This document shows positions 21,224-43,209 of a stretch of DNA of 64,000 bases, piece by piece. Both the position numbers and the translations under genes were made by a program. The DNA lies in the NCBI GenBank assembly GCA_017569285.1, contig CP069419.1:1736001-1800000 (forward strand). The letters run 5' to 3'. Within the stretch, counting starts at the first letter, position 1; every line of letters starts with the position of its first letter. The notes under the pieces are model-generated. The model worked only from the letters and a program-made list of their open reading frames with translations. It did no database searches and was not told the DNA's origin. This DNA is from Clostridiales bacterium (lineage in GTDB: Bacteria; Bacillota; Clostridia; Christensenellales; Aristaeellaceae).

Positions 21224-21235
21224 AAGGAGAAAGCA

Positions 21236-22366: not shown

Positions 22367-22392
22367 ACAGGGAACCGGGAGGTAGAAAAAAT

Positions 22393-23403: not shown

Positions 23404-23431
23404 GATCAATCACGGGAGGAACCGCCGAAAA

Positions 23432-23791
23432 ATGACCGAGAAGAAGAAAATGGACTGGAAGAGCCTGGCGCTTCTGCAGGGTATTGTGATCATCTACACC
23501 CTGTCAGGTGTTGCGGGGAAGCTGGCTTCCGGGCATGGATTCCTTTCGACCGGGTTTATCCTGTGGTACGGAGCGGAGATCCTGGTCCTGGGCATCTATG
23601 CGATCCTGTGGCAGCAGATTATCAAACGGTTCGACCTGTCCGTCGCGTATGCAAACCGGTCCATCGCGCTGCTCTGGTCCATGCTGTGGGCAGTGATCCT
23701 GTTCGGTGAAAAGATTACCGTGCAGAACATGATCGGGGTTGCGGTTGTGATTGCGGGAACAATGATTGTGAATGGAGAAAGCCGTGAATAA
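23432..23791 (+). CDS. Small EamA/DMT-family transporter, ArnE/ArnF-like subunit
   Basis: A 119-aa protein with four predicted helices and a short basic N-terminus, the size of small multidrug resistance and ArnE/ArnF proteins. It is followed by a second protein of the same type whose start overlaps its end, as in the arnE-arnF pair, which flips undecaprenyl-phosphate-aminoarabinose. Together with the ArnC/DPM1-like GT2 just downstream, the pair most likely moves an undecaprenyl-phosphate-linked amino sugar outward. The conserved late stretch SIALLWSMLWAVILFGEKIT is typical of the EamA family. GGGAGG precedes the ATG. Confidence 0.8.
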   Translation: MTEKKKMDWKSLALLQGIVIIYTLSGVAGKLASGHGFLSTGFILWYGAEILVLGIYAILWQQIIKRFDLSVAYANRSIALLWSMLWAVILFGEKITVQNMIGVAVVIAGTMIVNGESRE

Positions 23792-24119
23792 ATATTATCT
23801 TTTCATGTTTGGTTCGGTGATCCTTTCTTCCCTGTCCCAGATCCTGCTGAAGCTGAGCGCCCGGAAAAGCCACGGATCGTTCCTGAAGGAATACCTGAAC
23901 CCCCTGGTGATTGCCGGATACGGGCTGATGGTCGCCGCGACCCTGACCACCATTGCGGCCTACCAGGGAATGGACTACAAAAACGGGCCGATCATTGAGT
24001 CGCTGGGATATATCCTGGTAATGGTGCTGAGCTATTTCCTGCTGAAGGAGAAGGTAACCCGAAAGAAAATCCTGGGTTACTGCATGATCCTGGCAGGGGT
24101 GATCATATTCTATCTGTGA
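23784..24119 (+). CDS. Small EamA/DMT-family transporter, second ArnE/ArnF-like subunit
   Basis: A 111-aa, four-helix partner of the preceding protein. It carries the early Lys of the family (SQILLKLSARKS) and EKVTRKKILGYCMILAGVIIF at the C-terminus. The GTG at 23784 is preferred, with GGAG 6 nt upstream and an 8-nt overlap with the previous stop; the ATG at 23772 gives four extra residues but has a poorer ribosome site. Overlapping four-helix subunits are expected to form a heterodimer. Confidence 0.8.
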   Translation: MNKYYLFMFGSVILSSLSQILLKLSARKSHGSFLKEYLNPLVIAGYGLMVAATLTTIAAYQGMDYKNGPIIESLGYILVMVLSYFLLKEKVTRKKILGYCMILAGVIIFYL

Positions 24120-24141
24120 CAAAGGCGGAGGAGAACTGGAC

Positions 24142-25077
24142 ATGGATATCTCAGTGGTAATTCCCGTATATGGCTGCCGGGCGGCGCTCCCGGAGCTCCA
24201 CAGAAGGCTGACGGAGTCCGTCGGAGCAATTACACAGGATTATGAAATCATCCTGGTCAATGATGCGTGCCCCCAGAATTCCTGGGAAGTGATCCAGGAG
24301 ATCTGTGCGAAGGATCCCCATGTGGTGGGGCTGGAAATGTCCCGGAATTTCGGCCAGCTGAAAGCGACCCTGGCCGGCCTGGATTATTCCACCGGGGACT
24401 GGGTGGTTGTGATGGACTGCGACCTGCAGGACCGGCCGGAAGAGATTATCAATTTGTACAATAAGGTGCAGGAAGGCTATGACTTTGTGATTGCCAGCCG
24501 GGAATCCCGGCAGGATTCAAAGATGAAGGTCTTCGTTTCCAACTGCTTTTACTCGCTTTACTCCTATATGACGGATGTGAAGTACGATCCGACGCTGTGC
24601 AATTTCAGTATTTCCAGCCGGGCGGTCATTGACAATTACTGCCGGATGCGGGAGATGCACCGGGCTTTTACCATGTACCTGCTCTGGATGGGATACCGCT
24701 GGACCAAGCTGGGCGTGGAACATAATGAGCGGTATGAGGGAAAATCCGGCTATAATTTCAAAAAGCGGATGAAGATGGCCACGGAACTGATCACCTCGCA
24801 GTCAGACAAGCTGCTGCGGCTGATGACGCGGATCGGCCTGGTGATATCCCTGCTGTCTTTCCTGTTTATCATTGTCACAGTGATCCGGCATTTCGCGGCC
24901 AATATCGCGGTGGGGTACTCCAGCACGATTGCGGCGATTATGCTGATGGGCGGGCTGACGATCATGTCCATCGGGATTGTCGGGCTGTATGTCGGCAATA
25001 TCTTTATGGAAGTCAAGCACCGGCCGTTGTATATTGTCAGGACCAGGCTGAACGGAAAGGATCGGACGGATGAATAA
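24142..25077 (+). CDS. GT2 polyprenyl-phosphate sugar transferase (ArnC/DPM1-like)
   Basis: A 311-aa enzyme that should move a sugar from its nucleotide donor onto undecaprenyl phosphate at the inner face of the membrane. The GT-A domain fills residues 1-210 with SVVIPVYGCRAALPEL at the start and the metal-binding VVMDCDLQDRPEEI near residue 90. Two helices close the protein (about 228-252 and 264-288), the layout of ArnC, GtrB and PglC-independent DPM1-type enzymes. Lying between the ArnE/F-like pair and the ATP-grasp gene, it is the natural loading enzyme for the amino sugar. Its stop overlaps the next start by 8 nt. Confidence 0.87.
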   Translation: MDISVVIPVYGCRAALPELHRRLTESVGAITQDYEIILVNDACPQNSWEVIQEICAKDPHVVGLEMSRNFGQLKATLAGLDYSTGDWVVVMDCDLQDRPEEIINLYNKVQEGYDFVIASRESRQDSKMKVFVSNCFYSLYSYMTDVKYDPTLCNFSISSRAVIDNYCRMREMHRAFTMYLLWMGYRWTKLGVEHNERYEGKSGYNFKKRMKMATELITSQSDKLLRLMTRIGLVISLLSFLFIIVTVIRHFAANIAVGYSSTIAAIMLMGGLTIMSIGIVGLYVGNIFMEVKHRPLYIVRTRLNGKDRTDE

Positions 25078-26221
25078 GCGGATTGCGATCATCGGCGCCA
25101 GCGATCTCCAGCTGCCGCTGATTGAAAAAGCGAAGCAGATGGGTTATGAGACACACGTTTTTGCGTGGGCTGCGGGCGACGTGGGAGAGAAGGCGGCGGA
25201 TCATTTCTACCCGATCAGCATCATTGAGATCGGGCAGATCCTGGATGTGTGCCGGGAGATCCGGCCGGCGGCGGTTGCGTCCATCGCTTCAGACCTGGCA
25301 GCAATCACGGTTAACCGGGTGGCCAATGCGCTGGGGCTTCCGGCCAATCCCGTGGAAACGGCAACAATCGCGACCAACAAATATGAAATGCGGAAAACGT
25401 TCCTGCAGGCCGGCCTGCCGACACCGCGCTTTCTCCTTGCGGGCCCGGAAGATGACCTGGGTGAAGCCCGCAGACTGCGGCTTCCGATTATTGTGAAACC
25501 GACGGACCGGAGCGGAAGCCGGGGAATATTCAAGCTGGAATCCTTTGACAGGCTGGAGGAATGTGTGGCGGCGTCCAGCCGGGAATCCTTTGAGAAAAAG
25601 GCGATTATTGAGGAATATATCGAAGGGGAAGAATACAGCTGCGAATGCGTTTCCCAGGACGGAGTCCATCATTTCCTGGCGATTACCAAAAAGTTTACGA
25701 CCGGCGCACCCCACTTTATCGAAACCGGCCATATGGAACCTTCGGGACTGAGCGATTCCGTATGTGAACAGGTAAAACGCCATGTGTTCAAGGCGCTGGA
25801 TGCGCTGCATGTCCGGTGCGGGGCAAGCCACAGCGAGTTTAAGATTACTCCGGATACCGGCGAGGTCCGGCTGATTGAAATCGGAGCCCGGATGGGCGGA
25901 GACTGTATTGGCAGCGACCTGGTAAAGCTTTCCACGGGAAATGATTTCCTGCAGATGGTGATCGAGGCCGCGGCCGGGGAAAAGATCAGCCTGAGCACCG
26001 GGGAGCCCCGGGGATACGCGGCGGTGCGGTACATCATGAATGAAGAAGACTATGAAGGATACATGGCGTTGCGGAAAGCGGAGCCCGGACGGATTGTGAG
26101 GGAACATGTCCATTTTGAAAAGGGCGGGGAGGTCCTGGACAGTTCCACCCGATATGGATTTTATATTGTAACCGGAGCCAGTGAGCAGGAAGCAAGGCGG
26201 CTGGCAATGCTCCAGCCCTGA
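25070..26221 (+). CDS. ATP-grasp ligase
   Basis: A 383-aa ATP-grasp enzyme, which forms an amide or similar bond through an acyl-phosphate. A Rossmann-like N-terminal domain (IAIIGASDLQLPLIEKA) precedes the ATP-grasp core: the NKYEMRKTFLQAGLPTP hinge near residue 105, VKPTDRSGSRG (nucleotide-binding Lys and Gly-rich loop) near 143, EEYIEGEEYSCE near 180 and IEIGARMGGDCIGSDL (metal-binding end) near 268. No purine or biotin gene is nearby. In this operon an amino sugar is made, loaded and flipped, so attaching an amino acid or other acid to that amino group is an attractive role, but it is inference. It overlaps the GT2 gene by 8 nt. Confidence 0.82.
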   Translation: MNKRIAIIGASDLQLPLIEKAKQMGYETHVFAWAAGDVGEKAADHFYPISIIEIGQILDVCREIRPAAVASIASDLAAITVNRVANALGLPANPVETATIATNKYEMRKTFLQAGLPTPRFLLAGPEDDLGEARRLRLPIIVKPTDRSGSRGIFKLESFDRLEECVAASSRESFEKKAIIEEYIEGEEYSCECVSQDGVHHFLAITKKFTTGAPHFIETGHMEPSGLSDSVCEQVKRHVFKALDALHVRCGASHSEFKITPDTGEVRLIEIGARMGGDCIGSDLVKLSTGNDFLQMVIEAAAGEKISLSTGEPRGYAAVRYIMNEEDYEGYMALRKAEPGRIVREHVHFEKGGEVLDSSTRYGFYIVTGASEQEARRLAMLQP

Positions 26222-27816: not shown

Positions 27817-28893
27817 ATGAGAACGACAGCGCTGATCATGGCCGGAGGCCGTGGCGAACGGTTCTGGCCCAAAAGCAGGAAAAACACGCCCAAGCAATTC
27901 CTCTGCCTGACCAACTCTGACCGTACCATGATCCAAAGTACTGTGGACCGCATTCTCCCGATGGTTCAGATTGAGGATATCTATATTGTGACCAACCGGG
28001 CGTACAAGGGCCTGGTTCAGGAGCAGCTTCCGGAACTGCCGGAAGAGAACATCCTCTGCGAGCCGGTGGCGAAAAATACGGCGCCGTGCATCGGCTGGGG
28101 CGCAGCAGCGATCCGGAAGAAATATGGGGACGCCATGATGCTGGTTCTCCCCAGCGACCATCTGATCCTGCAGCCGCATATTTTCCGCAATGTGCTGAAA
28201 AGCGCGATCAGCGTGGCGGAAGAGACCAGCGCGCTGGTAACCCTGGGAATCGCGCCGACGGTTCCGGATACCGGATACGGCTATATCCAGTATGACACGG
28301 AAGGTTCCGGCGTATTCCACGGCGTGTTCCGGGTGAAGTGCTTTGTTGAGAAGCCGGACATGGAAACGGCCAAGAAGTACCTGGCAAGCGGCGAATACCT
28401 GTGGAACAGCGGAATGTTCATCTGGAAGGCATCGACCGTGCTGCGGGAGATGGAAACATTCCTTCCGGACAACTATGCCCTGCTGACAAAAATCGAAGAG
28501 GCCATCGGTACGGAGCAGGAGGAAGCGGTGCTTGAGGATTGCTTCAGCCGGATGGAGCCGATTTCCATTGACTACGGCGTGATGGAACGGGCAAAGGAAG
28601 TCTACGTCCTGCCCGCGAGCTTCGGCTGGGACGATGTGGGCAGCTGGCTGGCGGTGGGCCGGATTAATCCCAGCAACGATATGGGAAACGTGATCAAGGG
28701 CGACGTGGTGACGGTGGATTCCACCCGCTGCATTGTGCAGGGAGGCGACAAGACCATTGCCATGGTCGGCCTGGAGGATACCATCATTGTGGATACCAAG
28801 GATGCGCTGCTGGTCTGCGCGAAGGACAGCGCCGGCGAAATCCGGAAAGTGCTGGAAATCCTCCGGGCGGTTAACCGCACGGAGCTGCTGTAA
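27817..28893 (+). CDS. manC: Mannose-1-phosphate guanylyltransferase
   Basis: A 358-aa enzyme forming GDP-mannose from mannose-1-phosphate and GTP. MAGGRGERFWPKSR near the N-terminus is the pyrophosphorylase signature and FVEKPDMETAKKYL near 170 is the sugar-binding motif. It lacks the C-terminal phosphomannose isomerase cupin of bifunctional ManC/AlgA enzymes, so isomerase must come from elsewhere. It opens the operon whose next two products turn GDP-mannose into GDP-rhamnose. AAGGAGAAG precedes the ATG. Confidence 0.92.
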   Translation: MRTTALIMAGGRGERFWPKSRKNTPKQFLCLTNSDRTMIQSTVDRILPMVQIEDIYIVTNRAYKGLVQEQLPELPEENILCEPVAKNTAPCIGWGAAAIRKKYGDAMMLVLPSDHLILQPHIFRNVLKSAISVAEETSALVTLGIAPTVPDTGYGYIQYDTEGSGVFHGVFRVKCFVEKPDMETAKKYLASGEYLWNSGMFIWKASTVLREMETFLPDNYALLTKIEEAIGTEQEEAVLEDCFSRMEPISIDYGVMERAKEVYVLPASFGWDDVGSWLAVGRINPSNDMGNVIKGDVVTVDSTRCIVQGGDKTIAMVGLEDTIIVDTKDALLVCAKDSAGEIRKVLEILRAVNRTELL

Positions 28894-28942: not shown

Positions 28943-29989
28943 ATGAAAAAGGCGCTGATTACGGGAATTACCGGACAGGACGGAAGCTATCTGGCGGAGC
29001 TGCTGCTGGACAAGGGATATGAGGTGCATGGCATCATCCGCCGCTCCTCGGTGCCGACAACCAGCCGGATTGACCATATTATCGACCGGCTGGTGATCCA
29101 CGAAGGAGACCTTTCCGATTCATCCAGCATCAGCAAGATCGTGCTGAAAGTGAAGCCGGATGAAATTTACAACCTGGCGGCCCAGAGCCATGTACAGGTT
29201 TCGTTTGAAGCGGCGGAATACACAGGCGACGTTGACGCGCTGGGTGTGCTGCGGATCCTGGAAGCGGTGCACAATGCCGGGCTGGACAAAACCTGCCGGG
29301 TTTACCAGGCGTCCACTTCCGAACTGTACGGAAAGGTGGAGGAAGTGCCGCAGAACGAAAAAACCCCCTTCCATCCGTACTCCCCGTATGCGGTAGCCAA
29401 GCAGTACGGCTTCTGGATGATCCGTCAGTACCGGGACGCGTACGGAATCTTTGCCTGCAACGGCATCCTGTTCAACCATGAGAGCGAGCGCCGGGGAGAA
29501 ACCTTCGTAACCCGGAAGATTACCCGCGCGGCCGGCCGGATTGCCTGCGGGCTGCAGGACCACCTGGAGCTGGGCAACCTGGATTCCCTGCGTGACTGGG
29601 GCTACGCGAAGGATTACGTGGAGTGCATGTGGCTGATCCTGCAGCAGGACGAGCCGGATGACTACGTAATCGCGACCGGTGTGCAGCATACGGTGCGGGA
29701 ATTTACCACGCTGGCCTTTGCCCATGACGGAATCGAGATCGAGTGGAAGGGCGAAGGAATCAACGAAAAGGGATATGACAAAAAGACCGGGAAGATGGTC
29801 GTCTGCGTCAACGAAAAATGGTACCGGCCGACCGACGTGGTCAACCTCTGGGGCGACCCGACCAAAGCCCGGACCAAGCTTGGATGGAATCCGCAGAAGA
29901 CGAGCTATGAAGAGCTGTGCGCCATCATGGCGGAGCATGACCTGAAACTGGCAAAAGCGGAGAAGGCACAGGCGGAGGCCGGAAAATGA
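28943..29989 (+). CDS. gmd: GDP-mannose 4,6-dehydratase
   Basis: A 348-aa SDR that dehydrates GDP-D-mannose to GDP-4-keto-6-deoxy-D-mannose using bound [31 protein letters not shown] is the highly conserved Gmd opening; [18 protein letters not shown], the [11 protein letters not shown] catalytic motif and [17 protein letters not shown] follow in the normal order. It overlaps rmd by 4 nt (ATGA), as expected for partners that hand over an unstable keto-sugar. Confidence 0.97.
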
Positions 29990-30912
29990 GCGGGAAAGCG
30001 CTGATCACCGGCAGCGAAGGCTTTGTGGGGAAATACCTGCAGGCGGAGCTGGCCAGTAACGGATATGAGATCATCCGGGCAGATATTGTTTCCGGGCCGG
30101 GGGTGCATTCCATCAATCTTCTGGATGAAGGGAATGTACGGGAACTGGTCAGCGCGGAACAGCCGGATGTGATCTTCCACCTGGCTGCCCAGGCGGATGT
30201 CGGGAAGTCATGGAAACAGCCGCAGGCAACGATGCAGATGAACGTAACAGCCGCCATCAACGTGATGGAGGCTGTTCGTGCTGTGAAAGGGAAACAGGCG
30301 GCGATCCTGATGGTGGGCTCTTCGGACCAGTACGGAAACCTGGGGGAGGCCGGAGCCAGCGTTTCGGAAGAAACCGGGATGCGGCCCCAGTCTCCGTACG
30401 CGGTATCCAAGCGTGCCCAGGAGGAAATGGCAAAGCTGTACGCAAAGGCCTACGGGCTGCGGATCTGCATGACGCGGTCTTTCAACCACGGCGGAGCGGG
30501 ACAGCGCACCGGGTTTATGATTCCCGATTTCGCGTCCGGAATTGTCCGGATTGAGCGCGGGGAAAGCGACTGCCTGCTGGTGGGAAACCTGACGGCAAGG
30601 CGCGACTTTACCCATGTGCGGGACGTGGTCCGGGCTTACCGGCTGATTGCCGAGAAAGGGCAGCCCGGGGAGATTTACAACGTGGGATCCGGGAAAACAT
30701 ACAGCGCGCAGGAAGTGCTGGACAGCCTGATCTCAATGGCAAAATGCGAGGTGCCGGTGCGGCAGGATCCCTCCCGGCTGCGGCCGAGCGATACACCGGT
30801 AATCTGCTGTGACCACAGCAAGCTGACCCGGGATACAGGCTGGGAACCGGAACTCCCGATGGAGCGGATCCTGACGGATACGCTGGAATACTACCGCGGA
30901 TTGAACGCGTGA
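29986..30912 (+). CDS. rmd: GDP-4-keto-6-deoxy-D-mannose reductase (GDP-D-rhamnose synthase)
   Basis: A 308-aa SDR likely reducing the Gmd product at C4 to GDP-D-rhamnose. Motifs are [14 protein letters not shown] (NAD(P) site), [21 protein letters not shown] (YxxxK) and [20 protein letters not shown]. The last is typical of Rmd rather than of Fcl/WcaG, the GDP-fucose synthase, which also epimerises. With the ABC exporter downstream this matches the organisation of D-rhamnan loci such as the Pseudomonas A-band. A GDP-6-deoxy-talose reductase is a less likely alternative. Confidence 0.85.
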
Positions 30913-30943: not shown

Positions 30944-31723
30944 ATGATTCAGACACTGAAAGAGATCTGGGAATACCGGACGATGATTCAGTCGCTGGTG
31001 CACAAAGACCTTCGGGGACGGTACCAGGCAAGCGTCCTGGGCTTCCTGTGGACGTTTATTGTTCCGCTTTGCCAGCTGCTGGTATATACGGTGGTTTTTT
31101 CCGTGATTCTCCGGTCCGGGATTGAGAAATTCTACCTGTACCTGTTTGTGGCGCTGATTCCCTGGAATTTCTTCTCCTCCTGCCTTACGGGGGGATCCAA
31201 CTGCATCATCCTCCAGCAGTCATTGGTGAACAAGATCTATTTCCCCAGGGAGGTTGTGCCGATTTCCTATGTCACCAGCTCATTTGTGAACATGCTGTAC
31301 TGTGAAATCGTCGTTTTTGCCGTGTGCATTATTTCCGGTGTGCAGTTCAGCATTCCCGGGCTGCTGTGCCTGCCGCTGGTGATGATTATCGAGTACGTTT
31401 TTGCGCTGGGCATCACGATGATCATGTGCTCGATCAATGTCTACTTCCGCGACCTGGAGCATATCCTCGGGATTGTATCCATGGCCTGGATGTTCCTGAC
31501 GCCGATCATGTATGACATTTCCAATGTTCCGGAGCGGCTTCGTCCGATATTCATGCTGAATCCCATGACCGGGATCATCACCGCATACCGGGATATTATG
31601 TACAGCGGAACGGTGCCCCGGCTGGGGACGTTGGGGATGATCTTCCTGATGGGGATGGTTTTCCTGGCTGCCGGGTTCCTGATCTTCGGCAGGATGAAAC
31701 GCCGCTTTTCGGAGGTGATGTAA
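30944..31723 (+). CDS. wzm: Polysaccharide ABC transporter permease
   Basis: A 259-aa ABC-2 type permease with six helices. The N-terminal amphipathic segment (LKEIWEYRTMIQSLVHKDLRGRYQASVLGFLW) before helix 1 and the NPMTGIITAYRDIMY stretch near the C-terminus are standard for Wzm/TagG/RfbD proteins. It forms the channel through which an undecaprenyl-linked polymer leaves the cytoplasm, powered by the Wzt-type ATPase 2 nt downstream. Confidence 0.93.
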   Translation: MIQTLKEIWEYRTMIQSLVHKDLRGRYQASVLGFLWTFIVPLCQLLVYTVVFSVILRSGIEKFYLYLFVALIPWNFFSSCLTGGSNCIILQQSLVNKIYFPREVVPISYVTSSFVNMLYCEIVVFAVCIISGVQFSIPGLLCLPLVMIIEYVFALGITMIMCSINVYFRDLEHILGIVSMAWMFLTPIMYDISNVPERLRPIFMLNPMTGIITAYRDIMYSGTVPRLGTLGMIFLMGMVFLAAGFLIFGRMKRRFSEVM

Positions 31724-31725
31724 AA

Positions 31726-33003
31726 GTGGTGGAGCAGAAACCGGATCAGATTGTGATTGACGTACGGAACATCCGGAAGAAATATAAAATCTACTACGAC
31801 AAGGGGAATACGCTGAAGGACCGGATCCTGTTCCGGAACCGGCGGAGGCATGAGGATCACTGGGTGCTGAAGGGCGTTTCCTTCCAGGTCCGGAAGGGAG
31901 AAGCAGTCGGTCTGATCGGGGAAAACGGATGCGGAAAGAGCACCACCCTGAAGATGCTGACAAAGATCCTGTATCCCGACGAAGGGGAAATCACCATGGT
32001 CGGCCGGGTCTCCAGCCTGATTGAGCTGGGCGCCGGATTCCATCCGGACCTGAGCGGGCGGGAAAACATCTACACAAACGCGTCCATTTTCGGCCTGAAA
32101 CGGAAAGAAATTGACAACCGGCTGGAGGAGATTATTTCCTTCTCGGAGCTGGGAGAGTTTATTGACAATCCGGTACGGACCTATTCCTCGGGTATGTATA
32201 TGCGGCTGGCGTTTGCCGTCGCGATCAATGTGGACGCGGATATCCTGCTGATCGACGAGATCCTGGCGGTGGGAGACGCAGCCTTCCAGGCAAAGTGCTT
32301 CAAGAAACTCCAGGAAATCAAGGCCAGGGGAACCACGATTGTGATCGTATCCCATTCCCTGGGACAGATTGAACAGATCTGCGAGCGGAGCATCTGGATC
32401 AATGACGGGGTGATCCGGATGGAAGGCGCCCCGCGGGACGTTCATCCACATTACATGGAGTATATGGCCCGGAAGAATATGCCCCCGGAACCGGAAGGCG
32501 CCAAAGAGGAACCGGCTGCGGAAGCCGGCCCGGAGGCTGCCGCCCCGCAGAAGCCGGAAGAAACCGAACCGGCGGAGAAAAAACGCTGGGGAAGCGGCGA
32601 AGCCCGCATGACCAATGTGGAAGTATTGGGCAGGGACGGAAAACCCCACCGGCATTTTTCACCCAGTGAACCGATTACGGTCCGGATTGACTATACAGCC
32701 GATAAGGTTTTTGAAAACGCGGTGGCAGGCCTTGCAATCTACCGGAGCGACCAGACATATATCTACGGGACCAATACGCTGATCGACACGTCCAGGACGG
32801 TTACGCTCCGGGAGGCCGGGACGATCCGGCTGGAAATGGACTGCCTGCCGGTAGCAAACGGGGAGTATACCATTGACCTGGCCCTGCACCGGCCGGATGG
32901 GTTTGACTATGATTTCTGGCGGGAGATCTGTACAATCTACATTTCGGACAAGATCCAGACCCCGGGCGTGATCTATCTCCCGCACCACTGGGACGTTCAG
33001 TAA
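31726..33003 (+). CDS. wzt: Polysaccharide ABC transporter ATPase with C-terminal glycan-binding domain
   Basis: A 425-aa Wzt. The ATPase fills residues 1-245: Walker A GENGCGKST near 65, the YSSGM signature near 153 and Walker B ILLIDEILAVGD near 174. A Pro/Glu/Ala-rich linker (about 250-285) leads to a beta-rich C-terminal domain (about 290-425) like those that recognise the capped end of the polymer in O8/O9a Wzt; TagH-like or short ATPases lack it. Such a domain implies that export depends on a terminal modification, which the next gene may provide. Start is GTG at 31726 (another GTG follows at 31729), with GGAGGTGA inside the end of wzm. Confidence 0.92.
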   Translation: MVEQKPDQIVIDVRNIRKKYKIYYDKGNTLKDRILFRNRRRHEDHWVLKGVSFQVRKGEAVGLIGENGCGKSTTLKMLTKILYPDEGEITMVGRVSSLIELGAGFHPDLSGRENIYTNASIFGLKRKEIDNRLEEIISFSELGEFIDNPVRTYSSGMYMRLAFAVAINVDADILLIDEILAVGDAAFQAKCFKKLQEIKARGTTIVIVSHSLGQIEQICERSIWINDGVIRMEGAPRDVHPHYMEYMARKNMPPEPEGAKEEPAAEAGPEAAAPQKPEETEPAEKKRWGSGEARMTNVEVLGRDGKPHRHFSPSEPITVRIDYTADKVFENAVAGLAIYRSDQTYIYGTNTLIDTSRTVTLREAGTIRLEMDCLPVANGEYTIDLALHRPDGFDYDFWREICTIYISDKIQTPGVIYLPHHWDVQ

Positions 33004-33026: not shown

Positions 33027-34271
33027 ATGGCGGGAAAACTGCGCAGGATCATCAGCACAATCAGAAATGCCCCGGATATCCTGGAACGGCTGTCCGCGCG
33101 GATGGACCATGCCGCACAGCAGCTGGAGGATATGAACCGGACGCTGCAGGAGCAGGGGGACCGGCTGAATGAGGCGAATGACCGGCTGAACCTGGCCAAT
33201 GACCGGCAGAACGGGGCTGACAAGCGGCTGGACGAAGCGGAGCACGCCCTGCGGGCGGACAACGACCGCCTGAACCTGGCCAATGACCGGCAGAACGGGA
33301 CGGACAAACGGCTGGACGAAGCAGAGCATGCCCTGCGGGCGGACAACGACCGCCTGAACCTGGCCAGTGACCGGCAGAACGGAACGGATAAGCGCCTGGA
33401 CCAGGCGGAAAATGAACTCCGGAGCATCCGGACCGGTGACTGGATGATCCGGAATCCGGAACTGCTGCGGGTGCTGAACCGGGAGATGAGCATCCAGCCG
33501 ACCGTATGGGGAAATCCGGACCGGATCCGGGCGGCCAAAACCGCGGCGGTGGATTCCTGCCTTTTCAATACCAATTCGGGTACCATTACGATCGGCGAAT
33601 ATTCATTTGCCGGATCGCGGGTGAGCCTCCTGGCCGGGAGCCATGATCCCGAACTGACGGGTTTCCTGCGGCGGGACGCGGAGGAGACCGAGGGATACGA
33701 CATTGTCATCGGGAACGGCGTATGGATGGCCTCCGGCTGTACGATCCTCGGGCCGTGCACCATCGGGGATAACGCGGTGATTGCGGCCGGGGCGGTTGTC
33801 GTTCCGGGGACGGAAGTACCGGCCAATACGATTTTCGGCGGGGTTCCGGCAAAGCAGATCGGAACACTGGCCGGGCAGGAGGCCGGGGAAGGTCCCGGCG
33901 CGGCGGTGATCCGGGCACTGGCCCGGAACCGGGGTGTGCTGTTCACGGACGGCTGGTCAGAAAAAGCGATGTTTCCCGGAATTGTGCAGCCGGGTTACTG
34001 GCTGGAAAAAGAGACCGGAACGATCCTCCTGGGCTGTGCCGAATGGAGGTTCCTGTACGGGGTGGAAGGCGGAGAAAGCGCGGCGGTGCATATTTCCGAC
34101 GGGAAAGGATTTGAAAAGGACATCCCATTTACCGGTACAGGGGAAATGGCGGTTACCTTCCCGTATGAAAGCGGATATGAATCCATCCGGGTAACACAGG
34201 CTCCGGGTTCGGGCAGGCTGTTCTTATCGACCCTGCCGGGTACATGCGGAAAAGGGGAAGAGGAAACATGA
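33027..34271 (+). CDS. Coiled-coil plus left-handed beta-helix acyltransferase
   Basis: A 414-aa protein with three parts. Residues about 10-140 are a predicted coiled coil containing three near-identical 28-residue repeats (see 33180-33431). Residues about 165-290 are a hexapeptide-repeat acyltransferase of the CatB/maltose O-acetyltransferase type: ITIGEYSFAGSRVSLLAGSHD gives the likely catalytic His, and IVIGNGVWMASGCTILG, CTIGDNAVIAAGAVV and IFGGVPAKQIG complete the helix. The last 120 residues are an uncharacterised beta-rich domain. It sits 23 nt after wzt. In enteric O9a systems WbdD couples a coiled coil to a chain-capping enzyme; this protein has the same combination with an acyltransferase. 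That analogy is inference; the acyltransferase fold is clear. Confidence 0.8.
   Translation: MAGKLRRIISTIRNAPDILERLSARMDHAAQQLEDMNRTLQEQGDRLNEANDRLNLANDRQNGADKRLDEAEHALRADNDRLNLANDRQNGTDKRLDEAEHALRADNDRLNLASDRQNGTDKRLDQAENELRSIRTGDWMIRNPELLRVLNREMSIQPTVWGNPDRIRAAKTAAVDSCLFNTNSGTITIGEYSFAGSRVSLLAGSHDPELTGFLRRDAEETEGYDIVIGNGVWMASGCTILGPCTIGDNAVIAAGAVVVPGTEVPANTIFGGVPAKQIGTLAGQEAGEGPGAAVIRALARNRGVLFTDGWSEKAMFPGIVQPGYWLEKETGTILLGCAEWRFLYGVEGGESAAVHISDGKGFEKDIPFTGTGEMAVTFPYESGYESIRVTQAPGSGRLFLSTLPGTCGKGEEET
33180..33431 (+). repeat. Three 84-bp in-frame tandem repeats
   Basis: Units at 33180-33263, 33264-33347 and 33348-33431 each encode 28 residues with the core DRLNLANDRQNG and DKRLDEAEHALR. 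The first two units are almost identical in DNA; the third diverges at its end. Twenty-eight residues equal four heptads, so gain or loss of a unit would lengthen or shorten the coiled coil without breaking its register. Confidence 0.93.
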
Positions 34272-34699
34272 CAGAAGAGAATACCATCACGGTGGATACT
34301 GAGAAAATCATGGATGAAATCCGGGAACGGGTCCGGGAACACGGTGAATATGAATCGATCCTTTCTTTTGATGAGATTCCCATGCCGGCGGCGGAAACTG
34401 CGGCTTCGCCTGCTCCCGCAGGCGGGGAAGGCCCGCTGAAGGATCGTGTGCTGCGGCGGATCGGAAGCTGGCTGGTTCCGTGGGTATACCCGATTACGGA
34501 GAAAAGGCTTCCTTTCCGGATTTATAAACGGCTGATGAGTAAAATTGCCCGCTGCGTGCTGTTCCCGCTGGCCCAGCGCGTTACGGAAACCAACGGAAAC
34601 CTGCGGGCCGGGATTGAAGAGACCGCTGCGGAAGTGGACCGGCAGCAGGAACAGATCCGGCTGCTGGAGGCAAGGCTGGAAAAGCTGGAAAGAAAATAA
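34268..34699 (+). CDS. Small coiled-coil protein of unknown function
   Basis: A 143-aa protein with an acidic N-terminus (MTEENTITVDTEKIMDEIRERV), a Pro/Ala linker, a central amphipathic or weakly hydrophobic stretch (RRIGSWLVPWVYPITEKRLPFRIYKRL) that may lie on the membrane, and a C-terminal coiled coil (about 105-143). Its ATG overlaps the preceding stop (ATGA), so it is translationally coupled to the acyltransferase. Similar small coiled-coil proteins occur beside GT4 genes in rhamnan/mannan loci, where they may scaffold transferases. No family is recognised. Confidence 0.65.
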   Translation: MTEENTITVDTEKIMDEIRERVREHGEYESILSFDEIPMPAAETAASPAPAGGEGPLKDRVLRRIGSWLVPWVYPITEKRLPFRIYKRLMSKIARCVLFPLAQRVTETNGNLRAGIEETAAEVDRQQEQIRLLEARLEKLERK

Positions 34700-34735: not shown

Positions 34736-37075
34736 ATGAAAGTAATACAGTTGATTCCGGTGGTCGCATTTGGGGACGCGGTCAGCAATGATGCCCGGGC
34801 GATTAAAAGCCTGCTGAAAAAAGCGGGATATGACACGGAGCTTTACGCGGAAGCGATTGACGCGCGCCTTCCGGCCGGAACGGCGAAAGAGCTGACCGCC
34901 ATGCCGGAACTGGGTGCGGATGACGTGCTGGTTTACCATGCGTCCACCGGAACGCAGATCAATTATGACCTGCCCAAATACGGCGGACACAAGATCATGA
35001 TTTACCACAATATTACGCCGCCGTCCTATTTCCATGGCTATAACACAGAAGCGGAAAAGAATATGGAATTCGGCTATGCCGGAATCCGGTTCCTGGCGGA
35101 CAAGGTGGAATACTGCATTGCCGATTCCGAATACAACAAGCAGAACCTGCGGGAGATGGGATATAAATGCCCGATCGACGTCTGCCCCATCCTGATTCCC
35201 TTTGCGGATTATGATCAGCAGCCGAATCCGGGAACTATCCGGAAGTATAAAAGTGACGAATGGACCAACCTGCTGTTCGTGGGCCGGATATCCCCAAACA
35301 AAAGGCAGGAGGATGTGATCCGGGCTTTCTACAGCTACCAGAAAGATTACAATCCGAAAACCAGGCTGTTCCTGGTGGGCAACGCGGGCGGATTTGAAAG
35401 CTATGAGCAGCGCCTGAAACAGTACGCGGAAGTGCTGGGGATCGGAGACCGGGTAATCTTCCCGGGGCATATCCGCTTTGATGAGATCCTGGCGTATTAC
35501 CACCTGGCGGATGCGTTTGTGTGCATGAGCGATCATGAGGGATTCTGCGTCCCGCTGATCGAAGCGATGTACTTTGGCAAACCAATCGTTGCCTATAACT
35601 GCACGGCAATTCCCTATACCCTGGGCAAGGGCGGAGTGCTGCTGGACAGCCGGGATCCGGCCGTAGCGGCTGCCGCGATTGACAAAGTTATTCATGATGA
35701 GCAGCTGAAGGCTTCGGTAGCCGCGGGACAGAAGGAAATCCTGGACAGCCTGCAGGCGGAGAAGGTCGGTCATCTGTTCCTGGAACTGATGGGGAAGGCA
35801 ATCGGCTCCCAGACCGGCGAAGGCGTTCAGCCGGCCGAAATCCCGGAAAACGAAACGCCGGCTGCGGTACCGGAGCGAAAAGCGGAAAGCCGGGGCGGAA
35901 AGAAAATCGGATTTATTATTCCGTGGTATGGAGAAAAAATCGGCGGCGGCGCGGAAGCGGAGCTCCGGGGTGTTGTCCATCACCTGGCGGATGCCGGAGT
36001 CAGCCTGGAAGTGCTGACCACCTGCGTAAAGAGTTTCCAGGATGACTGGAACCGGGACTTCCACGAACCTGGACTGACGGAAGAGTACGGCATCGCGGTC
36101 CGCCGCTTCCGGGTCCGGCAGCGGGATGTCCAGGCGTTTGACCGGGTAAACCTGAAACTGATGAATGATATCGCGCTGACCCCGAAGGAAGAGAAGACGT
36201 TCTGTGAGGAAATGATCAACAGCCCGGACCTGATGGACTACATCCGGGACCATGGCGATGAATACGGACTGTTCTTCTTTATCCCGTACATGTTTGGCCC
36301 GGTATATTACGGATGCCAGCTTCATCCGGAAAAATCCATCCTGATTCCCTGCCTGCATGATGAGCGGTACGCATATATGGAATGCTTCCGTGAGGCGTTC
36401 TCCAAAGTGAAGGGCATGATCTTCAACGCGGAACCCGAGCGGTTGCTGGCGGAACGGCTGTATGGCGTGAAGGGGGACAGCTTTGTCACCTTCGGCCTGG
36501 GAATGGACGCCTCCTGGAAAGGAGACGGGGAGCGTTTCCGGCAGAAATTCGGGATCAGTTCCCCGTTCATCCTGTATGCCGGCCGGAAGGATGCCGGAAA
36601 ACGGGTGGACGTGCTGATCCGCAATTTCATTACCTACAAACGGCGGAATGATAACGATATGAAGCTGATCCTGATCGGCGGCGGGGATATCGACATTCCG
36701 TATAACGAAAGCATTATCGACCTGGGATTTGTGGATATCCAGGACAAGTATGACGCGTACGCCGCGGCGGAGATGTTCTGCAATCCCAGCCAGATGGAGA
36801 GCTTCAGCATTGTGATTATGGAAAGCTGGCTGGCCGGCCGGCCGGTCCTGGTGAACGGGCAGTGCGCTGTGACAAAGGATTTTGTGCAGCAGGCAAACGG
36901 CGGGCTTTACTATGAGAGCTATGGTGAGTTTGAGGAGTGCATCCGGTACCTGCTGTCCCATCCGGAGGTCGGAAACCAGATGGGGAAAAACGGCGGGGAA
37001 TATGTTCGCAGCCACTTTGTCTGGGATGTGATTGTGAACAAATACCTGGAATACATTGAACGGTTTTCTTCTTAA
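34736..37075 (+). CDS. Two-domain GT4 glycosyltransferase
   Basis: A 779-aa fusion of two GT-B, family-4 transferases. Domain 1 (about 1-365) has VFVGRISPNKRQ-like LLFVGRISPNKRQEDVI and EGFCVPLIEAM, with the E-x7-E catalytic pair. A Glu/Pro/Ala-rich linker (about 365-385) leads to domain 2 (about 388-779), which starts KIGFIIPWYGEKIGGGAE and has FILYAGRKDAGKRVD and ESFSIVIMESW (again E-x7-E). Such tandem GT4 proteins build alternating linkages in ABC-exported homopolymers, as WbdA does for mannan. With GDP-D-rhamnose made upstream, it probably polymerises D-rhamnose on the lipid carrier. Confidence 0.85.
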   Translation: MKVIQLIPVVAFGDAVSNDARAIKSLLKKAGYDTELYAEAIDARLPAGTAKELTAMPELGADDVLVYHASTGTQINYDLPKYGGHKIMIYHNITPPSYFHGYNTEAEKNMEFGYAGIRFLADKVEYCIADSEYNKQNLREMGYKCPIDVCPILIPFADYDQQPNPGTIRKYKSDEWTNLLFVGRISPNKRQEDVIRAFYSYQKDYNPKTRLFLVGNAGGFESYEQRLKQYAEVLGIGDRVIFPGHIRFDEILAYYHLADAFVCMSDHEGFCVPLIEAMYFGKPIVAYNCTAIPYTLGKGGVLLDSRDPAVAAAAIDKVIHDEQLKASVAAGQKEILDSLQAEKVGHLFLELMGKAIGSQTGEGVQPAEIPENETPAAVPERKAESRGGKKIGFIIPWYGEKIGGGAEAELRGVVHHLADAGVSLEVLTTCVKSFQDDWNRDFHEPGLTEEYGIAVRRFRVRQRDVQAFDRVNLKLMNDIALTPKEEKTFCEEMINSPDLMDYIRDHGDEYGLFFFIPYMFGPVYYGCQLHPEKSILIPCLHDERYAYMECFREAFSKVKGMIFNAEPERLLAERLYGVKGDSFVTFGLGMDASWKGDGERFRQKFGISSPFILYAGRKDAGKRVDVLIRNFITYKRRNDNDMKLILIGGGDIDIPYNESIIDLGFVDIQDKYDAYAAAEMFCNPSQMESFSIVIMESWLAGRPVLVNGQCAVTKDFVQQANGGLYYESYGEFEECIRYLLSHPEVGNQMGKNGGEYVRSHFVWDVIVNKYLEYIERFSS

Positions 37076-37096: not shown

Positions 37097-38386
37097 ATGG
37101 ATTTCGGAACGGTGATAAACCGGCTGAAAACCAGAATACGCAATTATTCCTTTCGGGATCATTGGTATAAAAGAATTCTGCCGGAAAAACTGAAACACGC
37201 ATTAAGCCGGAGCATTCTGAAAGTGCTGTCCTCGAAAACCGGAAAGCCGGCTCCCTATAAAGCCGGGGAGTTTCCGGAGGGGATCAACCTGTATGGGTTC
37301 TTCCGGGCGGAGAACGGATTGGCGCAAGGCGTAAAGCTGTATGCGAACGCGATTGAACAGGCGGGCATTCCGCATTGTTTCGTGAACACGGACTTCCTCG
37401 GATGGCTTCCGCAAAAAGACACTTCGTTTGACGACCGGCTTACGGATGACAACAAGTACGCGGTCAATATCATCCACATCAATCCTGACCAGTGGATGGA
37501 AGCGGTGGGGATGTTCCCCAGGAGCCACTTTGACCGCCATTACAACATCGGTGTATTCCTGTGGGAGTTGGAGCGGGTTCCCGACCACTGGCTGCCGATA
37601 TTTGAACAGGTGGATGAAGTCTGGGCACCGTCGGAGTTTGTGGCAAAGGCGATCCGGAAGGTGACCCAGAAACCGGTTTACCGGATTCCGTACGGCATCC
37701 TGACCCCGACAGTACCGCTTTCGCGCGAGGGTTTCCATCTGCCGGATGACACATTCCTGGTACTGCTGGCTTATGACTCCAACAGCTATGCTTCCAGGAA
37801 AAATCCGGACGCTGCGATCCGGGCATTCCGGGAAGCCTTCGGCGATAAACCGGGAGATGCCCGGATGGTGATCAAGATCAACAATCCGAAGGAAGAAGAG
37901 ATCGCCCATATCCGGGAGGTTGCCGGCAACCCGAACAGCTATATCCTGATGACGGAACGGCTGGACCGGAAGCAGATGAACCGGCTGATTCAGCTGTGCG
38001 ATGTGTATATCAGCCTGCACCGCAGCGAAGGATTCGGCCTGGTGATGGCGGAGGCCATGAACCTGGGCGTTCCCGTAGTGGCAACTAACTGGTCCGCGAA
38101 CACGGAGTTTATGCCGGAAGATGCCGCATGCATGGTGGGATATGATATGGTGCCGGTCGGCGATGCGTATCAGTTTGACAACACCGGCCTGACATGGGCG
38201 GACGCGGATGTACACCAGGCGGCGGAATACCTTAAAAAGCTGAAGGATGACGCGGCTTACAGGAAGCAGATGGCCCGGGCCGGACAGGAATATATCCGGG
38301 AATACCTGAGCGTGGAGAAATCCTCTGAAATGATCCGGGAACGGATGCAGGAGATTATGGGGAAACACAAAAAGACAGGACATTGA
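37097..38386 (+). CDS. GT4 glycosyltransferase
   Basis: A 429-aa GT-B enzyme. The donor-binding C-terminal half contains LLAYDSNSYASRKNPDAAIRAF, YISLHRSEGFGLVMAEAMNLGVPVVATNWS with an intact E-x7-E motif, and a closing helical region. The N-terminal basic amphipathic segment could hold it to the membrane. It probably starts or caps the polymer made by the double GT4 upstream. It begins 21 nt after that gene with a GCGGAGGCG ribosome site. Confidence 0.85.
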   Translation: MDFGTVINRLKTRIRNYSFRDHWYKRILPEKLKHALSRSILKVLSSKTGKPAPYKAGEFPEGINLYGFFRAENGLAQGVKLYANAIEQAGIPHCFVNTDFLGWLPQKDTSFDDRLTDDNKYAVNIIHINPDQWMEAVGMFPRSHFDRHYNIGVFLWELERVPDHWLPIFEQVDEVWAPSEFVAKAIRKVTQKPVYRIPYGILTPTVPLSREGFHLPDDTFLVLLAYDSNSYASRKNPDAAIRAFREAFGDKPGDARMVIKINNPKEEEIAHIREVAGNPNSYILMTERLDRKQMNRLIQLCDVYISLHRSEGFGLVMAEAMNLGVPVVATNWSANTEFMPEDAACMVGYDMVPVGDAYQFDNTGLTWADADVHQAAEYLKKLKDDAAYRKQMARAGQEYIREYLSVEKSSEMIRERMQEIMGKHKKTGH

Positions 38387-40384: not shown

Positions 40385-41956
40385 ATGTACAGTTGTCCGG
40401 GATGCGGGTCGCAGATGACGTTCGATATCGCGGGCCAGCAGCTGAAGTGCGGGCGGTGCGAGCGGACGATGTCGATTATTGAGGCGGATGAGCTGGAGGC
40501 CCGGCAGGCGGGAAGCAGCTTTTCCGCGGATGTGCTTTCGTGCCCGACCTGCGGGGCGCAGATCCATGCAGTGAACGCCGCGGCCGCGGCGTTCTGCAGC
40601 TACTGCGGATCGTCCGTGATGCTCGAGCAGAAAAAGAAAACAGAGGTTGAGGCACCGGAAAAGGTGGCGCCGTTCCAGATCACGCGGGAGCAGTGCTTTG
40701 AAAAGTACCAGGATATGCTGAAGCACAGCTTCTGCGTGGACCATACGCTGAAGCGGGACATCAAACCGGAAAGCTTCCGGGGAATCTATGTGCCGTACCA
40801 TACCTACAATGCCTGGGTCAAAGGCACAGTCGAGCTGGAGGGGAATGAAACCAAAGGCAACACGACGTATTACTACAAGACGGAAGTGGAGCTGAACCAC
40901 CAGTACGAGGGCATCCTGCATGACGCGTCCAAGGAAATGCCGGATGAGCTTTCCGAGAAGATTTCACATGTGGAGCAGAAGGACTTCATGCCCTTCTCCC
41001 CGGCCTACCTGAGCGGGTTCTACGCGGATGTGGCGGACACTTCTCCGAACGCGTATATTCCCTATGCCCGGAGCGAGGCGGTCCGGAAAGGCCTGGAGGA
41101 TACCATGGCTGACCTGAACGACGGCCTGACCTACCAGCCGACGGCCAGTCAGAAGCAGCTGCTGAAGCTGGCCAAGGCGGAGTACACCGGGGATACGCTG
41201 GTACCGGTATGGTTCATGAGCATGAAGAGCAAGGGCCGTGTGCTGTACGCGGTGCAGAACGGCGTTACCGGGGATATGTGGGCGGACCGGCCGCTGGACA
41301 TCCCGCGGTTCGCCCTGGTGACCGCGGTGCTGGCAGTGCTGCTGTTTGTGATCTTCAATATGTTCCTGACGCTGCGGCCGGAAATGGCCATGGTGGTTGC
41401 TATGCTGCTGGCGGTGGGCGCGCAGTTCGCGGTGAACGGGCGCCGGAGGACGGTGTTTAACCGGGAGAACCGGAAGGAAGCCGCCGGGAAGAAAGTGGAT
41501 GATATCCTGGAGCAGGTGAAGCAGACCACGAAGCTGGCGAAAAAGGCCGAGAACGGATCGATGTACGCTACGCTGGGTTCCCTGGGGGTCATCGGGGCGG
41601 GCGTCGCGCTGGCGGTCGGCATGTACCTGATGAGCAGCATCGGGAACATCAAAGTGTATAAGATTGCGGCGCTTGTGCTGACCGCCGCGATGGCGGCGGT
41701 GACGCTGGGAAGCGGGAAGAAACGGAGCTCGCTGCCCTGGGGCAGCATCGCGGCGCTGATCGCGATGGCCATTGGGTGCGTGCTGCTGATCCTGGATCCG
41801 TTCCACAGCGATGACCGGGCGTATTACCTGGTCACGGTGGGAATCATGGCGGCGGTCATCTGGGAATGCATCGATTTGCTGCGGGTCTATAACCGCAGCT
41901 GCTCGAACCCGCTTCCGCAGTTTACAAGCCATACGGGAGGTGAGGACCTTGCGTAA
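40385..41956 (+). CDS. Zinc-ribbon membrane protein
   Basis: A 523-aa protein. The first 80 residues hold two zinc ribbons, each with two Cys pairs: SCPGCG with KCGRCE, and SCPTCG with FCSYCG. The middle (90-300) is a soluble region with no recognised fold. Five or six helices follow from about residue 305 (FALVTAVLAVLLFVIFNMFL onward). Proteins annotated as TFIIB-type zinc ribbon often sit beside TPM-domain genes in Clostridia, as here; the next gene overlaps by 8 nt. The function is unknown; a role in membrane quality control is a guess. Confidence 0.75.
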   Translation: MYSCPGCGSQMTFDIAGQQLKCGRCERTMSIIEADELEARQAGSSFSADVLSCPTCGAQIHAVNAAAAAFCSYCGSSVMLEQKKKTEVEAPEKVAPFQITREQCFEKYQDMLKHSFCVDHTLKRDIKPESFRGIYVPYHTYNAWVKGTVELEGNETKGNTTYYYKTEVELNHQYEGILHDASKEMPDELSEKISHVEQKDFMPFSPAYLSGFYADVADTSPNAYIPYARSEAVRKGLEDTMADLNDGLTYQPTASQKQLLKLAKAEYTGDTLVPVWFMSMKSKGRVLYAVQNGVTGDMWADRPLDIPRFALVTAVLAVLLFVIFNMFLTLRPEMAMVVAMLLAVGAQFAVNGRRRTVFNRENRKEAAGKKVDDILEQVKQTTKLAKKAENGSMYATLGSLGVIGAGVALAVGMYLMSSIGNIKVYKIAALVLTAAMAAVTLGSGKKRSSLPWGSIAALIAMAIGCVLLILDPFHSDDRAYYLVTVGIMAAVIWECIDLLRVYNRSCSNPLPQFTSHTGGEDLA

Positions 41957-42683
41957 GGGATTTGCGATTCTGCTGGCTGTCCTGCTGGCGCTGGCCTCCG
42001 TTTCCTTCGCCGCGGCGGACGAAACGGCCTGGCAGGTGGTGATTGAGGACTCCGCCAACCTGCTGAGCGAGGCGGAAGAGGCGGAAGTGCGCACGGAGAT
42101 GGAAACCGTGGCGCAGTACTGCAACGCGGGTCTTTATACGACCAGCCGGCATACCGACATGAGCGCGCAGGAACAGGCGAAGGCCTGGGGAAGAAAGCAG
42201 TTCGGGAATGCGGATTTTACGGTGTTTGTGATTGACATGAACCAGCGGTGGATGGAAATCTACTCATCTGAACGGATCCACCGGGTGGTATCAACCGCCA
42301 AGGCGAACACCATTACGGACAATGTGTATAAGCTGGCCACCCGCGGCCAGTATGCGGACTGCGCGAAGGAAACATTCCGGCAGATCCGGCAGACGCTGGA
42401 AGGCTTTGAGGTGGCTTCGCCCATGCGCTACGCGACCAACGCGCTGGTGGCGGTGGCGGTCGCGATCCTGCTGGCGTACCTGCTGATTTACGCGCGGATG
42501 GAAAAGGAAACCGAGATCAGCCTCCCGGGCATCATCACGGTGATGGCGGCTGGGGCCGGTACGGCGGTGGTCGCGAAAAAACTGACGCGCACAGTCCATC
42601 ACTCTTCCTCTTCCGGCGGCGGCTCCGGCGGTGGCGGCGGAGGCGGTGGTGGCGGCGGCGGAGGCGGCGGCCATGGCTTCTGA
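41949..42683 (+). CDS. Secreted or membrane TPM-domain protein
   Basis: About 244 aa from a TTG start at 41949, chosen because GGGAGGTGAGG lies just ahead; a GTG at 41940 is the alternative. The product begins with a signal peptide (RKGFAILLAVLLALASVSFAAA), then a TPM domain (about 30-150, with VVIEDSANLLSEAEE and FTVFVIDMNQRWMEIYS), a membrane helix and a C-terminal tail of Ser and about 20 Gly ending GHGF. TPM proteins are extracytoplasmic, and this glycine-rich tail is common in the family. It overlaps both neighbours, which points to a three-gene operon. Confidence 0.82.
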   Translation: MRKGFAILLAVLLALASVSFAAADETAWQVVIEDSANLLSEAEEAEVRTEMETVAQYCNAGLYTTSRHTDMSAQEQAKAWGRKQFGNADFTVFVIDMNQRWMEIYSSERIHRVVSTAKANTITDNVYKLATRGQYADCAKETFRQIRQTLEGFEVASPMRYATNALVAVAVAILLAYLLIYARMEKETEISLPGIITVMAAGAGTAVVAKKLTRTVHHSSSSGGGSGGGGGGGGGGGGGGGHGF

Positions 42684-43209
42684 CCTGTATGCATACTGCC
42701 TGTTCTGCCGGACGCAGCGGTGTGAGAAGATTGCCCGGGTACTGGAAGTGAAGGGAATGGCGCGGGCGTTTTCGCCCCGCATCCTGCAGCGGCAGCGCGT
42801 GAAGGGCGAGAATATCCGGAAGTACGCGGATTTCCTGCCGGGATACGTGTTTGCGTTTTCCGAGGAGCCGCTGACGGACTATTCCGTGTTCTTCGGAATC
42901 GACGGGGTGATCCGGAAGGTCGGGCAGGCGGATGAAAACTACGAGCTGCAGGGCTCCGACCGGGAGTTTGCCCTGGAGCTGCTGGAAAAGGACGGCATCG
43001 TCGGCGGGATGCGCATGGTGAAGATCGGCGAGGATGTTACGCTGGACGATCCGCTGTTCGCCGGAAACCGGGGAAAAGTCACCCGGATCGATTACCGGAA
43101 GGAACGCGCCCGGGTGGACTTCACCTTCCGGGGCAACGAGTGCCACACCTGGGTGGCGCTGGAGGACGTGAAAAAGACACCCGGTCCCGAAGAAACGGGA
43201 AAGGAATAA
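42673..43209 (+). CDS. NusG paralogue, LoaP-like transcription antiterminator
   Basis: A 178-aa protein with an N-terminal NGN domain (about 1-110; YAYCLFCRTQRCEKIARVLE, and DFLPGYVFAF for the RNA-polymerase-binding part) and a C-terminal KOW domain (about 120-170; GNRGKVTRIDYRKERARVDFTFRG). Specialised NusG proteins such as LoaP and RfaH let polymerase read through terminators in long operons, often for polysaccharides. The ATG at 42673 lies inside the end of the TPM gene, so an upstream in-frame start at 42631, which would encode only Ala/Glu-rich sequence from the Gly-tail DNA, is rejected. The target operon is unknown. Confidence 0.82.
   Translation: MASDLYAYCLFCRTQRCEKIARVLEVKGMARAFSPRILQRQRVKGENIRKYADFLPGYVFAFSEEPLTDYSVFFGIDGVIRKVGQADENYELQGSDREFALELLEKDGIVGGMRMVKIGEDVTLDDPLFAGNRGKVTRIDYRKERARVDFTFRGNECHTWVALEDVKKTPGPEETGKE

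Follow-up and report, generated by a model that had tools for sequence, protein, structure and literature searches.

The analysis of the window, the whole stretch of 64,000 nucleotides of Clostridiales bacterium DNA considered here, reveals a protein (hereafter ACYL) that joins a long coiled coil to a hexapeptide acyltransferase and is encoded directly after a Wzt with a glycan-binding C-terminal domain. Our best reading, which rests on position, module sharing, and co-variation and to which we give slightly better than an even chance, is that ACYL works in the cytoplasm to terminate the chains of a polysaccharide exported by an ABC transporter; the polymer is probably a D-rhamnan, and its acylated end would be read by Wzt_C. 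More tentatively, and with confidence somewhat short of even, we propose that chain stop and export are signalled by an acyl group, attached by a hexapeptide enzyme whose coiled-coil ruler is subject to duplication, that this arrangement came about in a single genus when a coil-methyltransferase was replaced, and that the cap-binding loop of Wzt was re-shaped to read the acyl group. If true, an acyl cap would be new chemistry among the stop signals of ABC-exported chains, and a single genus would show the cap, the enzyme with its ruler, and the transporter's reader domain changing in concert, so that natural parts could be swapped to test how terminator and transporter are matched.

Architecture of the acyltransferase protein

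The reading frame of ACYL is open throughout its 414 codons from the ATG, and no second copy was found in the genome at E 0.001. From the N- to the C-terminus, the protein consists of a basic amphipathic segment, a coil, a hexapeptide acyltransferase domain, and a C-terminal domain (Table 1). The amphipathicity of the N-terminal segment was equalled in 24 of 2,000 shuffles, and the corresponding counts across the eight orthologs ranged from 10 to 702 of 2,000. The hydrophobic periodicity of residues 17-149 peaks at 3.48 residues, with power at 3.5 matched by none of 2,000 shuffles, and the coil extends beyond its three 28-residue units, which begin at residues 52, 80, and 108; pairwise comparison of these units gives 27, 20, and 21 identities over 28 residues. 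The coil core carries mostly Leu at one heptad position and Ala, Thr, or Asp at the other, a composition that does not by itself settle the oligomeric state.

The enzyme domain was recognized through Hexapep (PF00132), which matches residues 225-258 (1.8e-9; score 37.3 bits, cut-off 27) and is the only model to clear its Pfam cut-off in ACYL, and through its nearest PDB relatives, the maltose and galactoside acetyltransferases. The catalytic motif is intact: His206, which we take to be the conserved catalytic histidine of hexapeptide acyltransferases, is kept within GSHD or GNHD in all eight orthologs, and much of the hexapeptide core is invariant in 8/8, in contrast to the divergent arm and C-terminal domain. 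Among the best 25 of 40 families, ACYL stays far below the curated cut-off of the named sugar O-acetyltransferase equivalogs (WbbJ, WcaF, LacA, and Maa), its best named-family score being 46.9 bits against a cut-off of 150 (EpsC). The C-terminal domain has no Pfam match and no PDB match better than E 0.36. A chance repeat or a non-coding frame was ruled out by the open frame, the repeats, the heptad periodicity, and the orthologs. The preliminary description had claimed a coil of three 28-residue repeats joined to a hexapeptide acyltransferase, beside a Wzt with a C-terminal glycan-binding domain; the tandem repeat, the 3.48-residue periodicity, and the PF00132 match above cut-off bear out the former, and the Wzt_C domain (PF14524, 4.6e-24) encoded by wzt, which ends 23 bp before the ACYL start, bears out the latter.

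Table 1. Features of the ACYL gene cluster, with positions in the window
Feature	Position	Strand	Evidence or remark
ManC-like, GDP-mannose synthesis	27817..28893	+	338.6 bits, under the bifunctional-enzyme cut-off of 372.95
GMD, GDP-mannose 4,6-dehydratase	28943..29989	+	516.3 bits, NCBIfam cut-off 415
SDR reductase, RMD-like	29986..30912	+	62.7 bits; cut-off for GDP-fucose synthase, 500
Wzm, ABC-2 transporter membrane protein	30944..31723	+	Pfam
Wzt with Wzt_C glycan-binding domain (aa 285-417)	31726..33003	+	PF14524, 4.6e-24
Private cap-loop motif HRPDGFDYDF in Wzt_C	32887..32916	+	Pattern H[RK]PDGF.YDF
ACYL, coil-acyltransferase, proposed chain terminator	33027..34271	+	ATG start, 414 aa
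N-terminal stretch MAGKLRRIISTIRN, short, basic, and amphipathic; may contact the membrane	33027..33068	+	Hydrophobic moment 0.62, net +4
Coiled-coil region of ACYL, aa 17-149	33075..33473	+	Heptad periodicity
84-bp / 28-residue tandem repeats	33180..33409	+	Tandem Repeats Finder: 2.7 copies, score 376
Hexapeptide acyltransferase domain, aa 158-281, invariant His206	33498..33869	+	PF00132, PDB relatives
ACYL C-terminal domain, aa about 300-405	33924..34241	+	Divergent in orthologs
p143 module (IMxEIR motif, basic amphipathic helix, C-terminal coil)	34268..34699	+	143 aa from conserved ATG
Two GT4 glycosyltransferase domains, one protein	34736..37075	+	Pfam; separate genes in several relatives
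GT4 glycosyltransferase	37097..38386	+	Pfam

Gene cluster and predicted polymer

ACYL holds an operon position between wzt and the gene for the p143 module, whose start the ACYL stop codon overlaps as ATGA. Given a GMD accompanied by a reductase that scores far under the GDP-fucose synthase cut-off, the ManC/GMD/RMD cassette upstream would probably supply GDP-D-rhamnose, and the polymer would be D-rhamnan-like. Pfam matched no methyltransferase in any of the genes called between 16750 and 38816 (20 of 20 scanned).

Two neighboring regions of the window may be mentioned in their own right. Positions 19046-26221 encode a WecE-type transaminase (630 bits, over the cut-off of 375), an SDR, paired small EamA/ArnE-like membrane proteins, a GT2, an ATP-grasp enzyme, and a 725-aa protein without a Pfam match, a set that looks like aminosugar synthesis with the sugar presumably added outside the membrane. 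At 41811-43209, a TPM-domain protein is followed by a NusG-like protein just above its Pfam cut-off.

Distribution of ACYL

ACYL occurs in 8 of the 45 genus genomes (the window's, G001, G002, G007, G011, G023, G027, and G066, which form the 8-row alignment); the simple gene caller misses genes of unlike codon use, such as ACYL in G007, and these places were read by hand. It lies directly after Wzt in six of the eight (the window, G001, G007, G011, G023, and G066). In G002, ACYL is found 6 kb from Wzt and adjoins a separate coil-methyltransferase, with p143 in the slot after Wzt; given this placement, it may not be the terminator there. The coil-methyltransferase in question is a 275-aa protein (L006, 2396-3223), and the cluster thus holds two candidate terminators. 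G027 (87% complete) has ACYL and p143 and no Wzt_C at E 0.001, its sole Wzt match at 1e-60 lying 24 kb from ACYL and being devoid of a C-terminal domain; in its stretch C9 28000-58000 (L040, L041), the ACYL and p143 cassette is present with no Wzm/Wzt among the called genes. G024 (78% complete) presents the reverse situation, a Wzt of the ACYL clade and no ACYL. A Wzt at least 56% identical to that of the window occurs in 10 of the 45 genomes, namely seven of the eight ACYL genomes plus G024, G034, and G064. By comparing ACYL with the ACYL-clade Wzt, we counted seven genomes with both, one with each alone (G027 and G024), and 36 with neither (hypergeometric 1.4e-6, which is not an independent-sample probability given the relatedness of the genomes).

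The length of the arm varies: in the eight orthologs, the N-terminal motif and the enzyme are separated by 53, 60, 73, 80, 94, 95, 144, and 145 residues. Heptad periodicity as strong as observed was reached by at most 17 of 2,000 shuffles in five of the eight orthologs, the window included, and is not significant in G002, G027, and G066 (898, 573, and 414 of 2,000 shuffles).

Beyond the genus, the search retrieved 13 of 396 genomes in the order sample at 1e-18 (four genus members with long matches and nine with the enzyme part only), 2 of 393 in the class sample at 1e-20 (the window plus one enzyme-part match), and 3 of 398 in the phylum sample at 1e-20 (the window plus two enzyme-part matches). 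Viral contigs gave no match, and a genome-contig scan with one sequence, which reaches close relatives only, gave one hexapeptide match in an unrelated setting (L031). A widely spread ACYL family was rejected for the samples taken, as long matches fall within the genus only. Since ACYL with its arm and C-terminal domain is confined to the genus in these samples, the acyl type seems to be local and may be recent. Large proteins that read as leucine-rich-repeat-like are encoded near the cluster in seven genomes (cluster c10; for example, L032 14170-16479 in G002 and L070 10164-12881 in G024) and are possible glycan carriers.

Exchange of the gene after Wzt

The genus members G034 and G064b carry the same ManC/GMD/RMD cassette and a Wzt 56% identical to that of the window; directly after this Wzt lies a gene whose product combines a basic helix and a coil with an FkbM-type methyltransferase (the Pfam scan covered the protein of G034, where it found PF05050). 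The coil of the G064b protein contains a 21-residue repeat. Elsewhere among the Wzt_C loci of the genus, the slot holds a c13-type SAM methyltransferase (G019, G030, G036b, and G064a, with Pfam run on the G030 protein) or other proteins (G036a and G003), and in G068 the c13-type family is encoded upstream of Wzm. The c13 protein has no Pfam kinase match, no PDB kinase match, and no match to WbdD in PDB, its kinase part being a motif reading.

The class was surveyed at 80 of the 84 places that exceed the family cut-off besides the window (G690, G674:C58, G726, and G684 were left out), 6 of the 80 loci being shorter than 13 kb owing to contig ends or the chosen stretch. Within three genes after Wzt, 27 of the 76 class loci kept carry a c13-type SAM methyltransferase and 3 carry a p143-coil-methyltransferase (Pfam check on L118, L120, L136, and L140 only), and 41 of the 76 are labelled "other," meaning that the few HMMs used found nothing there. 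No hexapeptide enzyme after Wzt was detected in the 80 class loci with a small HMM built from the eight orthologs, which could miss more distant hexapeptide enzymes; it matched only L176 and L192, both upstream of Wzt. Two small HMMs likewise found no methyltransferase gene in the other ACYL clusters, and as they fail on the coil-methyltransferase of G002, other methyltransferases could be missed.

The p143 module ties ACYL to the methyltransferase systems. The p143 sequence, for whose window copy neither Pfam nor NCBIfam gives a match above cut-off, is fused to the C-terminus of ACYL in G001 and G023, and its beginning alone is fused in G066. In L140, L149, L152, and L155, the same sequence stands at the N-terminus of a coil-methyltransferase (the methyltransferase being assigned by Pfam in L140 and by reading in the other three). 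The companion module of ACYL is, therefore, one that other systems attach to methyltransferases. It is also found with no attached enzyme in L142, L153, L157, L159, and L160, and in L144 as well. p143 marks Wzm/Wzt clusters in several families of the class (L140, L142, L144, L149, L151-L153, L155, L157, L159, and L160), and this module, which has no Pfam family, could serve to recognize such systems in the class. In L142, two proteins follow the p143-type Wzm/Wzt cluster at 331-3028, the first of them large and multi-pass; they are presumably MBOAT and SGNH/DltD-type, and acylation after export is possible.

Co-variation of the Wzt C-terminal domain

In a tree of 92 Wzts, which leaves out L151 and L152 (no Wzt call), L174, L176, G027, and the weak-Wzt_C cases G003 and G015, the Wzts of the ACYL genomes plus that of G024 form a clade (100/99) inside a larger clade of 19 rows. 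Seventeen of the 19 are labelled ACYL (including G002 with its ACYL at 6 kb), coil-FkbM methyltransferase, or p143; the other two are L144, which has p143-type genes and, by reading, a coil-methyltransferase, and G024, which has none of these nearby. The slot labels, in which "WbdD" denotes a c13-type SAM methyltransferase within three genes (upstream of Wzm in G068), require 10 changes on the tree as against 42.4 when shuffled.

This association was further followed in the domains of Wzt. Wzt_C is 44-51% identical in the six pairs of G011 with other ACYL-linked Wzts (ATPase-domain identity 67-75%) and 32-38% identical in 14 pairs of ACYL-linked with FkbM-linked Wzts (ATPase domain 70-73%); where slot content differs, Wzt_C identity falls more than ATPase-domain identity, a contrast that follows phylogeny and so amounts in effect to one or two events. 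The Wzt_C of G024, from a genome without ACYL, is 35-45% identical to the others. Specifically, the pattern H[RK]PDGF.YDF is present in 7/7 Wzts of ACYL genomes and in 0/85 others, and it aligns with the loop of the A. aeolicus Wzt that traps the cap (PMC9445017). In the G024 Wzt, the cap loop is altered and Wzt_C scores lower (57.8 bits). The positions of the A. aeolicus methyl pocket do not cleanly separate acyl-linked from methyltransferase-linked domains; the loop alone does so. At position 300, the ACYL group and L155 have Ala, and the other p143 and FkbM rows have Gly.

Proposed function and alternatives

Taken as a chain terminator, ACYL could work as follows. The N-terminal segment and coil, together with p143, would hold the protein near the membrane-bound polymerase, and the coil would set a minimum chain length by distance, such that the catalytic domain at its far end acylates the non-reducing end of a sufficiently long chain, most likely by O-acetylation from acetyl-CoA. 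The acylated end would stop growth, and its recognition by Wzt_C would permit export. The preliminary description had proposed a coil used as a ruler, an acyl cap, and co-occurrence with Wzt C-terminal domains in related genomes. Co-occurrence speaks mostly for the terminator, in that slot content (ACYL, coil-FkbM, or other methyltransferase) agrees with the Wzt clade and Wzt_C differs with the slot; the exceptions are G027 without Wzt_C, G024 without ACYL, and G002 with a distant ACYL, and as slot content and Wzt_C follow phylogeny, the agreement represents in effect few events. Also weighing against the terminator are the 41 class loci in which the markers used found nothing after Wzt and the methyl-pocket positions, which do not sort the two kinds of domain cleanly. 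The ruler part is weakened by the three of eight orthologs whose heptad periodicity is not significant.

A serious rival, although one we consider unlikely, is that ACYL acylates sugars along the polymer, with the coil and p143 holding it at the polymerase, and has no part in chain stop or in marking for export, length being set elsewhere. Hexapeptide acetyltransferases commonly decorate polysaccharides, and the families that score best with ACYL, all of them below cut-off, include WcaF and WbbJ. The retention of ACYL in G027 without Wzt_C and its adjacency to a coil-methyltransferase in G002 would also suit decoration, as would the Klebsiella O1 terminal pyruvate, a non-essential group that is added before export without controlling length according to the excerpted text of PMC11231755. 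Decoration leaves unexplained, however, why the slot is exchanged with methyltransferases and why Wzt_C changes with its content; a further point against it is that no methyltransferase was found in the window cluster.

Two further explanations were weighed. That ACYL N-acetylates a nucleotide sugar, such as dTDP-Fuc4N from the WecE-like transaminase, as a QdtC/FdtC-type enzyme or WecD would, appears highly improbable. The transaminase is indeed encoded in the same cluster (21236-22366), and QdtC is a left-handed beta-helix trimer (PMC2943079, in part); yet tblastn with the transaminase at 1e-3 returned nothing in the 19-32 kb regions of the other seven ACYL genomes, which led us to reject this as the main reading, and distant matches came only from G030 and G064a, both without ACYL. 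Such a role, moreover, requires neither coil nor p143. We give equally little credence to a scaffold in which an acyltransferase-derived trimer positions glycosyltransferases via the coil and catalysis is unimportant: the variable arm length, the duplicated coil units, and the five other loci with p143 lacking an attached enzyme would fit it, but it is the arm and C-terminal domain that diverge, His206 and a large part of the hexapeptide core being the same in 8/8.

Comparison with known terminators

No acyl terminator is described among the titles and abstract openings that the literature searches listed, which is no proof of absence in print. Among five further CPA genes treated by Hao et al. 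in 2013, one reportedly may encode an acetyltransferase. The caps named for ABC-exported chains in the excerpted sources are methyl, methylphosphate, and Kdo (PMC11231755, PMC9445017), to which S-layer glycans add N-acetylmuramic acid or N-acetylglucosamine as capping residues (PMC2943079). According to the same partial texts, published terminators carry the enzyme at the distal end of a coil and are partnered with a CBM-bearing transporter (PMC11231755), and WbdD is trimeric through its helix (PMC3482155).

WbdD (E. coli O9a/O8, Klebsiella O3/O5), a methyltransferase or kinase-methyltransferase, resembles ACYL, as far as these excerpts describe it, in combining Wzm/Wzt with a CBM and an enzyme with a long coil. 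If the terminator reading is right, ACYL would act as these coil terminators do. It differs in its catalytic module, a hexapeptide acyltransferase, and has neither a methyltransferase nor a kinase domain by Pfam; judged by this domain content it is not a member of the WbdD family proper; its coil is N-terminal to the enzyme, whereas that of WbdD is C-terminal, an order that ACYL shares with the coil-methyltransferases of its relatives. Varied catalytic modules that are joined to a coil and all act as terminators are also described for Klebsiella O12 WbbB, O4 ORF7 (Kdo), and O7 ORF6 (methylphosphate), the last with an extra predicted Ig-like CBM domain as ACYL has an extra C-terminal domain (PMC11231755, in part); this likeness is one of described architecture, and unlike the proposal for ACYL, no acyl cap is named for these three in the excerpted text (PMC11231755). 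WsaE of the Geobacillus S-layer glycan (2-O-methyl cap) shares a Gram-positive rhamnose polymer, Wzm/Wzt, and a proposed terminal modification, but its methyltransferase domain sits on a glycosyltransferase and the excerpt names no acyltransferase (PMC2943079).

WbbJ, WcaF, and the maltose and galactoside acetyltransferases share the catalytic domain of ACYL; these stand-alone hexapeptide O-acetyltransferases are about 200 aa long, with neither a long coil nor a C-terminal domain of the ACYL type. The proteins of G034, G064b, L140, L149, L152, and L155 resemble ACYL in lying after Wzt, in the order of basic helix, coil, and enzyme, and in having a related Wzt (L152 is not in the tree); they differ from it in being methyltransferases and in the cap loop of their Wzt_C (loop compared in all but L152).
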